Shown here: positions 35,901-58,688 of the stretch, piece by piece
How positions within the stretch are numbered: position 1 is the stretch's first letter
How the letters are laid out: each line of letters opens with the position of its first letter
Program-made: the position numbers and the translations under genes
NCBI RefSeq assembly: GCF_025558585.1
Contig: NZ_CP094723.1
Coordinates: 1,984,001 to 2,048,000, forward strand
Source of the DNA: Staphylococcus sp. IVB6214
GTDB taxonomy: Bacteria; Bacillota; Bacilli; Staphylococcales; Staphylococcaceae
Direction: 5' to 3'
Length of the DNA stretch: 64,000 nucleotides
Notes under the pieces: model-generated
The model's input: the letters and a program-made list of their open reading frames with translations, nothing else
The model's database searches: none
Told to the model about the DNA's origin: nothing

Positions 35901-36512
35901 ATGGATTTTTTTAAACCATTACATATTGAAAGTTTTGAAAAGCAACGTTCCGAACCTAAAGTAGGAATCAAATTTTTAATCCTTCTTATCATTCTCGCAG
36001 CGAGCACAGTCGTTTCTGGATTTGCGCTGGATTTCAACGCACTCACTGCAGAACAAAGTAACATACAAGGTGTTGATTCCGAACAACTTGCAACCTATAC
36101 AAAATACTTTTCCTTAATTGGCATTGTCATCGGTGCACTTTTCGCACTTGGCTTTATGTTCCTTGTCTTATTCATTATTGATAAAATTTCCAAATCTGAA
36201 ACGCGTCCGAAGAGTATTTTCGCTTCCCTTCTTTTACGTGTCATCATTATTCAACTGATTCAGCTTGTCGCAATTACCATTCAATGGATAGTTGGGATAG
36301 ATGCGACGCAGTATTCAATCACTTCATTGAATGTCTTTGATCCTGATAATGACGCTTTACGTGCAATCAGCCTGACAACTCTTGTTTCTGCATGGTTGTT
36401 TGGCGTAACACTTCATTCAACAATGCATATCAATAAGCGTTGGTCATTGATTTTAACATTCATTTATCTTCTTTTATTTATGGGACTACCACTTATTTTT
36501 GCACTCATTTAA
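35901..36512 (+). CDS. Yip1-like multi-pass membrane protein
   Basis: 203 residues from ATG 35901 behind AAAGGGGTG; a TATAAT-like box lies about 35 bases upstream (TTATAAT near 35865). Five hydrophobic segments (about residues 28-46, 78-103, 112-138, 160-178 and 183-203). Resembles the YIP1-domain proteins of staphylococci. No enzymatic motif; function unknown. Confidence 0.75.
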   Translation: MDFFKPLHIESFEKQRSEPKVGIKFLILLIILAASTVVSGFALDFNALTAEQSNIQGVDSEQLATYTKYFSLIGIVIGALFALGFMFLVLFIIDKISKSETRPKSIFASLLLRVIIIQLIQLVAITIQWIVGIDATQYSITSLNVFDPDNDALRAISLTTLVSAWLFGVTLHSTMHINKRWSLILTFIYLLLFMGLPLIFALI

Positions 36513-36532
36513 TTTATCTAATACAAGATTGG

Positions 36533-36886
36533 AACAAAAGTGGTTAGGATTTTAACAGGACGAGAGCGGCAAGCAAAATCGCTTTTTGATTTTGTAGAGC
36601 CGCGACGTTCTGTCGAAAGCCCTGCTTCTCGAACACTGACATCTCGAGGTTGTGAAAAGTACGTTTAGAATTTAAGCAGAACCCGAGCGGTGAGCAAAAT
36701 TGCTTTTTAATTTTGTAGAGCCGCGAAGTTCTGTCGCAAATTCTGTACTTTGAACACTGACATCTCGAGGTTGTGAGAGAAGCGCTTAGGGGTTGAGCAG
36801 AACCCAAGCAATTCTCAAAATAGCTTTTTTATTTTGGAGAATTGCGACGTTCTGTCGAAAGCCCTGCTTCTCGAACACTGACATCT
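36533..36886. repeat. Three tandem ~120-nt hairpin repeats (unrecognised family), cluster 1
   Basis: Copies at about 36533-36645, 36646-36765 and 36766-36886, each ending in CACTGACATCTC. Copies 2 and 3 fold into one long hairpin: outer GAG/CTC and GTG/CAC, then GAGAAGC/GCTTCTC, then CAGAAC/GTTCTG, then an inner arm. Where copy 2 differs from copy 3 both arms change together (AAAGTAC with GTACTTT; AGAATTT with AAATTCT). Copy 3 has a different inner stem (GCAATTCTC with GAGAATTGC) from the GCGG/CCGC of copies 1 and 2. The 5' arm of copy 1 is degenerate. Frames across these copies are repeat artefacts, not genes. Confidence 0.85.
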
Positions 36887-36930
36887 CGAGCACTAACAAT
36901 TGATTTCGTAGCGTACAAGTTTATTATGTC

Positions 36931-37395
36931 TCAGTCTCTTTTTAAATTTCTTGTACGAATGAGACGCTTCAAAAATAAACCAATGATATAGACTAACAAT
37001 ACAATGAGCACAGCTGTTAATAAATATGGTGGTAAGTAACTCTTACCGTGTGATAAATAATAAACATTCGTCACAAAGAGTAGCCATACACCCACTTCAA
37101 TCATGAATAAAGTGGTAATCATCTCTGTCCCAAGTGTTGCTGTGTTCCTTTCATTCTTTCCTTTAAGGTTGCGTTCTATTTTAGGAAGATAGCGCACCAT
37201 TATCGTAATAATTGTCCAAATCAACATAAAAATCAGTGGAAGACTCCATAACGATGACTTTGCCCCATACTGATCAGGCATCCCATGCGCACCGTAATGT
37301 GTTCCAATTTGACTTGGGATATTCCCGTAAACGTCTGTTAAATAAATCACAGCTCCTAACCATAGTACAGGTATGAATAAATTAACTTTTTTCAT
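36931..37395 (-). CDS. DUF1648-domain membrane protein
   Basis: 154 residues behind GGAGGGG. Four hydrophobic segments. The DUF1648 pattern IPSQIGTHYGAHGMPDQYGAKS (split here: IPSQIGTHYG then HGMPDQYGAKS) follows the first helix. It overlaps the upstream kinase-like gene by 14 bases, so the two are co-transcribed. Such proteins include SdpI-like immunity and signalling factors, but no sdp genes are nearby, and the function is unknown. Confidence 0.85.
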   Translation of the reverse strand: MKKVNLFIPVLWLGAVIYLTDVYGNIPSQIGTHYGAHGMPDQYGAKSSLWSLPLIFMLIWTIITIMVRYLPKIERNLKGKNERNTATLGTEMITTLFMIEVGVWLLFVTNVYYLSHGKSYLPPYLLTAVLIVLLVYIIGLFLKRLIRTRNLKRD

Positions 37396-38374: not shown

Positions 38375-39037
38375 ATGACAAATAAACGTCAACAATTATT
38401 AGACACATTCAACTATCGTTTCGCATCAAAGCGTTTTGATGCTGATAAAAAAATCGACGACAAAGACTTCGAAACAATTTTAGAAACTGGTCGTCTGTCA
38501 CCAAGTTCACTTGGCTTAGAACCTTGGAAATTTCTTGTTGTACAAGACCCTGAGTTACGACAAGCATTAAAGCCTATCAGCTGGGGTGCACAAGGACAAC
38601 TGGATACAGCAAGTCACTTCGTCATACTGTTAGCACGTAAAAACGTTCGTCCTGAATCACCTTACTTCCAATATCATGTCCGTGAGATTAGACATATGTC
38701 AGAAGAAATGGTTTCTGCTATGGTAGAAAAAACAGCGAACTTCCAACGAGACAATCTTCACCTTTATGAGAGCGATCGTGCGTTATGGGACTGGGCAAGC
38801 AAACAAACATATATCCCACTCGGCAACATGATGACTGCCGCAGCCTTCTTAGGTATCGACTCATGCCCAATAGAAGGATTCCAATATGAAGATGTTGCGA
38901 AGGTGTTAGCTGACAAAGGCTACCTTGACACAGACGAGTTCTGGCCATCTGTCATGGTGGCATTTGGTTATCGCGACGCAGAGCCAAAGCGTGCAAAAAC
39001 ACGTCGCCCAGCCGAAGACGTCATACAATGGATCTAA
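38375..39037 (+). CDS. Nitroreductase-family NAD(P)H oxidoreductase (NfsB/YfkO-like)
   Basis: 220 residues behind AAAGGAGTG. The FMN-binding N-terminus FASKRFDADKKI (about 15), RLSPSSLGLEPWKFLVV (about 41) and the C-terminal substrate/dimer segment DSCPIEGFQYEDVAKVL (about 167) mark the oxygen-insensitive nitroreductase group. It differs in subgroup from the nitroreductase at 22308-22937. The hairpin repeat cluster 2 starts five bases after its stop. Confidence 0.9.
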   Translation: MTNKRQQLLDTFNYRFASKRFDADKKIDDKDFETILETGRLSPSSLGLEPWKFLVVQDPELRQALKPISWGAQGQLDTASHFVILLARKNVRPESPYFQYHVREIRHMSEEMVSAMVEKTANFQRDNLHLYESDRALWDWASKQTYIPLGNMMTAAAFLGIDSCPIEGFQYEDVAKVLADKGYLDTDEFWPSVMVAFGYRDAEPKRAKTRRPAEDVIQWI

Positions 39038-39041
39038 CAAC

Positions 39042-39207
39042 GAGGTTGTGAGAGAAGCGCTTAGGGATTGAGCAGAACCCGAGCGGTGAGCAAAATTGCT
39101 TTTTAATTTTGTAGAGCCGCGAAGTTCTGTCGAAAGCCCTGCTTCTCGAACACTGACATCTCAAGGTTGTGAGAGAAGCGTTTAGGGGTTGAGCAGAACC
39201 CAAGCCC
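39042..39207. repeat. Hairpin repeat, cluster 2 (one full copy and one truncated copy)
   Basis: A full copy (39042-39162) has the same arms as cluster 1: GTGAGAGAAGCGCTTAGG with the complementary CCCTGCTTCTCGAACAC, CAGAAC/GTTCTG and GCGGTGAGCAAAAT with ATTTTGTAGAGCCGC. It is followed by the first 45 bases of another copy, cut after CAGAACCCAAGCCC. The unit starts five bases after the nitroreductase stop. Confidence 0.85.
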
Positions 39208-39229: not shown

Positions 39230-39276
39230 CCCCATTCATACTTAGAAGTGATTATATATATGAATGGGGTTATTTT
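39230..39276. terminator. Terminator downstream of lipase / nitroreductase
   Basis: CCCCATTCATA / TATGAATGGGG stem with T-rich sequence on the plus-strand side (GGGGTTATTTTTAT) and a weaker tract on the minus-strand side. Confidence 0.75.
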
Positions 39277-57845: not shown

Positions 57846-58688
57846 TTAGGCTGCTAATTTTCTGTATTGCACAGGGGATAAGTAGCCTAATTTTTGTTGA
57901 ATTCGATTATTATTATAGTTTTCAATGTACTTTTCGACAATATCCTTTACAATGAAATTAGAGTTATTTAACTCATTGTTAAGATAAAATGTTTCACACT
58001 TTAGCGAGGAATGGAAACATTCTATCGGGGCGTTATCAGCAGGTGTACCTTTGCGAGACATACTTCTGATAATGCCCTTTTCTTCGCATAATTGGTAGTA
58101 AGCATGCGATGTATAGACGCTTCCTTGATCGCTATGAAGTAGACATCCTTCTGGAATATCAATTTGGTTTAAGGTGTCATTTACCAAACTTTGATCTTGT
58201 GTATCGCTAATCTTATAAGCCACAATTTCACCGTTATATAAATCGATGATTGAAGATAAATACAACATTGAATTACCAAAGGGAAGATACGTAATATCAG
58301 TAGTCAGTACTTGTAGAGGTTGATTTGCTCTAAAGTTACCATTCAGTTTATTGCTTGTAAGATAATATGCCTTCCCTCGACGTTTAGATTTCTTAATTCT
58401 AACTCTACAATTCAAATTATTTTCTCTCATAATTCTTTGTACACGTTTATGGTTTATCGGTTGTTTAGAGGCCTGATTCATCAGAGCAGTTATCTTGCGA
58501 TAGCCGTACGTGTAATGATTATCTTCACATAATTCCTTAACCTTTTTAACTGTTGTATCTTCCGTTTTCTTCTTATTTTTCCAACGGTAGTAATTTGATT
58601 TAGGGACATTCAACACTTCCAAAATCAGCTTCACAGGATGCCTGTGCTTTAACTCATCCACTAATTCTATCACTACTTCAGGTACCAC
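57846..58688 (-). CDS. IS3-family transposase OrfB (DDE integrase domain)
   Basis: 280 residues as an independent frame; the functional product is expected to be the OrfAB fusion made by -1 frameshifting. N-terminal HTH_21-like part (YGYRKITALMNQ, about 66) and an rve catalytic domain with Asp in LTTDITYLPFG, Asp in LHSDQGSVYTS and Glu in NAPIECFHSSLK (DDE complete). C-terminal NRIQQKLGYLSPVQYR is the family signature. Confidence 0.92.
   Translation of the reverse strand: MVPEVVIELVDELKHRHPVKLILEVLNVPKSNYYRWKNKKKTEDTTVKKVKELCEDNHYTYGYRKITALMNQASKQPINHKRVQRIMRENNLNCRVRIKKSKRRGKAYYLTSNKLNGNFRANQPLQVLTTDITYLPFGNSMLYLSSIIDLYNGEIVAYKISDTQDQSLVNDTLNQIDIPEGCLLHSDQGSVYTSHAYYQLCEEKGIIRSMSRKGTPADNAPIECFHSSLKCETFYLNNELNNSNFIVKDIVEKYIENYNNNRIQQKLGYLSPVQYRKLAA

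Follow-up and report, generated by a model that had tools for sequence, protein, structure and literature searches.

What is the hairpin repeat that lies three times, head to tail, between two genes of Staphylococcus sp. IVB6214, and why do its arms remain matched although its copies differ? Our answer, drawn from comparison of sequences in and around the window (the whole stretch of 64,000 nucleotides that was analysed), is that it is probably an IS1272-type MITE with a hairpin body that has been tandemly amplified in this host, an identity that we favour because of its ends, its targets and the inventory of the host genome. Bacterial MITEs are short and non-coding, have terminal inverted repeats in common with an IS and occur in many intergenic copies, and the repeat is like them in each of these respects; it is unlike them in that target duplications do not go beyond chance, in its covarying hairpin body and in the internal tandem amplification of a 121-nt unit. 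The kind is a known one, that of the MITE or intergenic palindromic repeat, and what is particular to this repeat is that it has a hairpin body, that this body covaries and that units of 121 nt stand in tandem. Among the matches listed in a search of the open-access literature by titles and abstract openings, with subscription papers mostly outside its scope, none dealt with this repeat and none reported an IS1272-type MITE in staphylococci.

The three head-to-tail copies of the original prediction, and the further 1.4 copies downstream, are indeed present in the window (Table 1): array 1 consists of three units of 121 nt at 36525-36887, spaced by 121 and 121 nt and followed by an end piece to 36938, and array 2 of 1.4 units at 39042-39205. 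The repeating unit had been recognised correctly but its limits had been drawn too narrowly, the whole element running from about 36525 (AAGATTGGAACA) to 36938 (TATGTCTCAGTCTC). As had been claimed, all four complete units fold, each as a single long hairpin, with a minimum free energy of -37.5 to -45.9 kcal/mol for the + strand and a z of -3.1 to -4.7 against 200 dinucleotide shuffles. The - strand, with a z of -2.0 to -4.0, folds more weakly, by energy in all four units and by z in three of them. The claim needs amending for unit 1, whose outer stem is badly paired because a left arm of ancestral type (CAAAAGTG) faces a right arm of GCTTCTC type. Array 1 lies between convergent genes, with its left end 12 nt past the stop codon of the upstream gene; the downstream gene takes its stop codon (36931-36933) and its last codons from the right end of the array, so that the insertion seems to have reset the C-terminus of that protein. 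Array 2 stands directly 3' of a nitroreductase-family gene (38375-39037), and downstream of it a stem-loop with a T-rich tract can be seen by eye at 39230-39269, which a terminator scan that allowed loops of 3-8 did not report. Elsewhere in the window, the + strand at 57945-58042 gives an Rfam match, in this Staphylococcus genome, to rli23 (RF01458), an RNA of Listeria; it scores 87.6 bits, where the gathering score is 45.

Table 1. Positions of the two repeat arrays and their parts in the window (CM, covariance model)
Feature	Position	Strand	Remarks
Array 1, left end AAGATTGGAACA	36525..36536	+	Decayed version of the ancestral end GAGGTYGGGACA, by comparison with single-copy elements
Array 1, unit 1	36525..36645	+	Left arm of ancestral type, right arm derived, outer stem badly paired; CM match 36527-36639, 103.8 bits
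Array 1, unit 2	36646..36766	+	Hairpin with outer stem AAAGTAC/GTACTTT; CM match 36648-36760, 123.1 bits
Array 1, unit 3	36767..36887	+	Outer stem GAGAAGC/GCTTCTC, inner stem GCAATTCTC/GAGAATTGC; CM match 36769-36881, 126.7 bits
Array 1, tail and right terminal inverted repeat	36888..36938	+	TATGTCTCAGTCTC at 36925-36938
Array 2, complete unit	39042..39162	+	Begins 4 nt past the stop of the nitroreductase-family gene; CM match 39044-39156, 131.9 bits
Array 2, second unit, left part only, truncated	39163..39205	+	

Copies elsewhere in the genus had been proposed as a check, and they are plentiful. A DNA query of 121 nt gave 38 matches in the host genome, was positive in 4 of 24 congeners and found no match in 15 genomes of other genera, and a search with a covariance model built on 54 units, which scored no more than 44 candidates in any genome and whose counts are therefore lower bounds, found at least 44 units in the host and relatives of the repeat in 36 Staphylococcus genomes, the host's among them, out of 84, each species being represented by one genome; over the host loci, nhmmer E-values were as low as 1e-36. 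More than 30 copies each occur in G071, G079 and G090. The site of array 1 is empty in the close relatives S. rostri (G079), S. microti (G070) and S. americanisciuri (G041) and holds other repeats in G071 and G090, and that of array 2 is empty in S. microti and in the more distant G058 and holds a repeat remnant in G071. The genus also offers two observations in their own right. In G054, all 20 hairpin copies that were fetched (L110-L129) are near-identical and have an extra left-hand sequence in common, and in 17 of the 20 a module of the kind GGGAGCAGTACAGAAATCT...AGATTTCGTCGTACTGCCCCC comes after the hairpin, similar to the start signature of the STAR elements. In related species, another repeat with GGCARTAGTTGACT sits in the loop of the element or in the same intergenic place (L030, L033 and L036 of G003; site 1 of L130 and L131), and at site 1 it has the form GGCAGTAGGTGACT or GGCAGTAGGTGTCT.

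In other species, for example those of G018, G002 and G086, the repeat occurs singly, as an element of about 159 bp. Such single copies, 157-161 bp long, were found at 39 distinct sites, counted after removal of duplicates by flank and including at least one pair (L046 and L185) that seems to be one old insertion in two species, and they carry the terminal inverted repeats GAGGTCGGGACA / TGTCTCAACCTC. In its complete form the single element is gene-free: a left end GAGGTYGGGACA is followed by a long imperfect hairpin of about 100 nt and then a short tail, and the right end is TGTCYCARCCTC. In being short, non-coding and bounded by terminal inverted repeats, the 39 copies answer to the description of a MITE. 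The host still has one single form that is nearly complete (L010), while 17 of its 23 arrays now start with GAGGTTGTGA and have lost GGGACA, so that they may be immobile in their present state.

What might have moved a gene-less element of this kind? The host carries ten near-identical copies of an IS1182-family IS, of which one (L232) codes for a 525-aa IS1182-family transposase (NF033551; 387.7 bits, cut-off 270) and the nine others are 98.2-99.9% identical to it; their ends are GGGGCTGGGACATA / TATGTCTCAGCCCC, the right one missing in copy L249, and IS1182-family elements in seven other genomes have similar ends. When four single-copy examples of the repeat are set against eight IS1182-family IS, which were picked because they have such ends, 10-12 of 14 positions on the left and 9-12 of 14 on the right are alike, these being short matches. 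An IS1182-family locus of G068, with a partial frame of 196 aa, starts with GAGGTCGGGACA, which is also the first 12 nt of the repeat in that genome. On both strands of the window, the only site at least 12/14 identical to the right end of the host IS is 36925-36938 (12/14), the very end of array 1; the left end of array 1 compares poorly with that of the host IS (8 of 14 identical, and 8-9 of 14 when IS1182-family ends are taken together), and the hairpin body has no similarity to the IS sequence (best E 0.27). Across the genus, the PF05598 transposase is found in 16/36 repeat-carrying and 27/48 repeat-free Staphylococcus genomes, which is no association, and it is absent from G071, G079 and G090 despite their many copies, although the test is blunt because PF05598 also catches IS with other ends: the 12 IS loci that were fetched comprise five with both ends of IS1272-like type, two with the left end only (L262 and L265) and five with neither. 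We also observed that in two IS copies of the host, L253 and L254, the loop of the left-end hairpin, which lies within the first 90 bases, is inverted (GTGTTTTTCGACAC against GTGTCGAAAAACAC in other copies); this suggests inversion or template switching at DNA hairpins.

The choice of target can be compared as well. The flanks of the 39 single copies form inverted repeats, with an end-adjacent run of 1.33 nt on average against 0.55 +/- 0.15 when the right flanks are shuffled (0 of 5000 shuffles) and a longest complementary block of 4.2 against 3.7 (p 0.003), and a looser 8-nt score is borderline (p 0.051). Target duplication at the same sites does not stand out: exact direct repeats average 0.51 nt, and 0.44 nt after shuffling (p 0.27), and a single site has one of at least 4 nt. 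For the flanks of ten IS copies, nine from the host (L249 excluded) and one from G070, the run is 2.5 against 1.34 (p 0.005), and the 8-nt score again gives a p of 0.051. One copy of the repeat, L061, was read by eye as lying in the loop of the terminator AACTGCTAGC...GCTAGCAGTTTTTTT, which is thereby split; no relative with that terminator intact was found for this site, and the one readable relative, G002, has another terminator. According to published work on IS1272, that element makes no target duplications, its targets were inverted in 3/3 new and 7/13 older copies (three of the older ones being non-inverted and three unknown), and a form of it, IS1272L, has a tandemly duplicated left end (PMC5678879). 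The repeat is therefore like the IS1272/IS1182 family in its ends of the GRGNYGGGACA type, its inverted-repeat targets and the lack of target duplication, and its tandem units are reminiscent of IS1272L; it is unlike these IS in having no transposase gene, in its long hairpin body without similarity to the IS and in the repetition of whole units of left end plus hairpin.

The second half of our question concerns the arms. The matched changes that the original prediction had quoted are as it gave them, and the covariance-model check that it proposed yields strong covariation among the aligned copies. In 147 units fitted to the model, an alignment that leans towards structure, 95.5% of cells pair and 23 of 28 helix pairs have changed on both sides; the double-change cells number 509 against 167 +/- 19 in shuffles (0/500, a count that, like those below, is not a probability, because related sequences can beat such shuffles without structure), and pairing falls to 36-56% when the partner column is slid by 1-3. 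The sources of this alignment (100 chosen) take in 6 of 15 loci of G086, 4 of 5 of G058, 4 of 11 of G018 and 1 of 5 of G003, and one locus of G054 (L064) was included while the 20 loci L110-L129 of that genome were excluded. In a structure-blind alignment of 33 host units, 18 of 31 pairs show double changes, in 109 cells against 41 +/- 7 (0/500 shuffles), and a measure of further pair types was reached by 4/500. The variants of the outer stem include GAGAAGC/GCTTCTC, AAAGTAC/GTACTTT, AAGGAGC/GCTCCTT, GTAAAGC/GCTTTAC, CAAAAGC/GCTTTTG and AGTGAGC/GCTCACT, among others. That pairing is kept despite change, as had been predicted, holds at most stem positions but not everywhere, since the first units of L005 and L016 in the host are chimeras of left and right arms with a broken outer stem.

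A role specific to one strand predicts that G.U will outnumber A.C as an intermediate in the + strand. This is what is seen in the model-fitted alignment at 24 pairs that are mainly Watson-Crick, where the count is 147 cells against 58 (cells that are not independent) and 17 of 21 informative pairs agree, and again in a structure-blind alignment of 143 of the 147 rows (at least 100 letters, duplicates out), with 218 against 98. Branch counts on the same 143 rows, which are rough in that recombination blurs unit trees, give 117 changes from a Watson-Crick pair to G.U against 85 to A.C (p 0.03; 17 pairs for, 12 against), 21 returns to Watson-Crick from G.U against 3 from A.C, and 128 Watson-Crick to Watson-Crick double changes on single branches against the 117 changes to G.U. 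The asymmetry is thus mild, and it is compatible with RNA or with a single DNA strand. Within arrays, the tandem units of L142 are identical and those of L140 nearly so, and unit 1 of L157 has the outer stem of another unit around the common inner body. The block changes, the identical units, the stem swaps and the inverted loop in the host IS copies point to conversion and template switching as further processes at work.

How should these patterns be read? The pairing claimed by the original prediction stands, and selection on structure behind it is possible, short of proof because gene conversion and template switching in palindromes also give matched block changes. The strongest competitor to a selective account is that the matched changes are a mutational product and need no selection: one arm would be copied onto the other, or nested stems exchanged, when tandem units undergo gene conversion or the template is switched inside the palindrome. 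We regard this as a serious contender, if a less probable one. It is favoured by block changes such as AAAGTAC/GTACTTT for GAGAAGC/GCTTCTC, by double changes that exceed the changes to G.U, by the like units of L142 and L140 and the stem swap of L157, by the inverted loop of L253 and L254 and by the broken-stem chimeras L005 and L016; it does not predict the excess of G.U over A.C or the lopsided returns, and single, non-tandem copies in different species also stay paired, although the branch counts used here are, as noted, rough. It seems rather unlikely, on the other hand, that the repeat is at heart a structured RNA or mRNA 3'-end element, selected in its + strand and co-transcribed with the upstream gene, whose stability at the 3' end or termination it would set, its spread being secondary. 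Such a role would accord with the strong covariation, with the better energy of the + strand in 4/4 units, with G.U being commoner than A.C, and with a left end no more than 25 nt from the upstream gene's stop codon in 22 of 24 convergent settings. However, among 83 arrays from five genomes, with ORFs called mechanically (24 convergent, 25 codirectional sense, 20 codirectional antisense and 14 divergent), there is no orientation bias between codirectional genes, and 14 lie between divergent ones; a hairpin in single-stranded DNA predicts the same G.U bias, which is itself modest and counted in non-independent cells; and orthologous sites in sister species stand without the repeat. The suggestion of an RNA or one-strand role thus retains its mild strand asymmetry and gains nothing from orientation. 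Rfam 15 has no family that matches the arrays at gathering score, the region 36500-36960 giving a chance-level match only (E 0.95), and, as had been supposed, no named element was found that explains the pairing.

The original prediction had also looked to an IS200/IS605-like transposase, and of this the link to a transposase appears likely, while the type does not: ends, targets and host inventory point instead to an IS1182-family DDE transposase of IS1272 type. REP and BIME elements, which go with RAYT transposases, are tandem palindromic units at gene ends, and the repeat is like them in just this way; it is unlike them in its longer unit, its IS1182-type ends and the lack of any Y1 transposase found in the host. 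A search for PF01797 covered 24 genomes (the host and 23 relatives) and 15 repeat-carrying genomes and found none in the host. We therefore consider a REP-like element moved by a Y1 (RAYT) transposase very improbable, for all that the repeat is an intergenic hairpin in many copies and that 7/15 repeat-carrying genomes do have Y1 genes: the gene is missing in the other eight, namely the host and 7/14 of the rest, and the ends and the inverted repeats of the flanks fit IS1182-family elements. Still less credence can be given to a divergent STAR element, which had been discounted from the start. Both are intergenic, at many loci and in tandem units, and the GTGGGACAGAAATGAT signature with which STAR arrays start has GGGACA in it too (PMC3532100). 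But the STAR motif TNTGTTGNGGCCC has no exact occurrence in the host genome and none in the window with one mismatch allowed, the unit is 121 nt against about 55, sequence and species range differ, and the two families co-occur as separate sequences in G018, G086, G002 and G068. The last of these genomes holds 271 exact STAR motifs (142 forward, 129 reverse), and the 62-90 reported per S. aureus genome lie below this number (PMC3532100).

We therefore return to the IS1272-type MITE and to how it might work. That it moves in trans by an IS1182-family transposase, how its arrays arose and why its pairing is kept are matters that we infer. An IS with similar ends, IS1272-like and of the IS1182 family, would supply the DDE transposase that moves the gene-less element, and the element would insert as IS1272 does, into existing inverted repeats, some of them the terminator stem-loops behind genes, without target duplication. 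In the host lineage and its near relatives, the left end and hairpin would then have been copied head to tail inside the element to give arrays of 121-nt units, for which the tandem left end of IS1272L is a precedent on a small scale, and as the copies diverged their arms may have stayed matched through recombination or conversion between units, selection for a foldable strand, or both. A bolder idea, which we put forward as a speculation and think rather doubtful, is that hairpin MITEs of IS1272 type replace or split intrinsic terminators at gene ends throughout the genus and supply + strand 3'-end hairpins that are then selected, and that STAR likewise stems from a GGGACA-ended element.

STAR elements are the best-known intergenic repeats of staphylococci, and what they do, where they came from and how they spread are described as unknown (PMC3532100). 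Tying a further large family of repeats to ends of IS1182 type and to targets that are inverted repeats provides a mover that can be tested, and it offers a reason for such repeats to gather behind genes. In addition, the family, with its 147 aligned units, furnishes a large natural data set on whether changes in the arms of a palindrome reflect selection or conversion.
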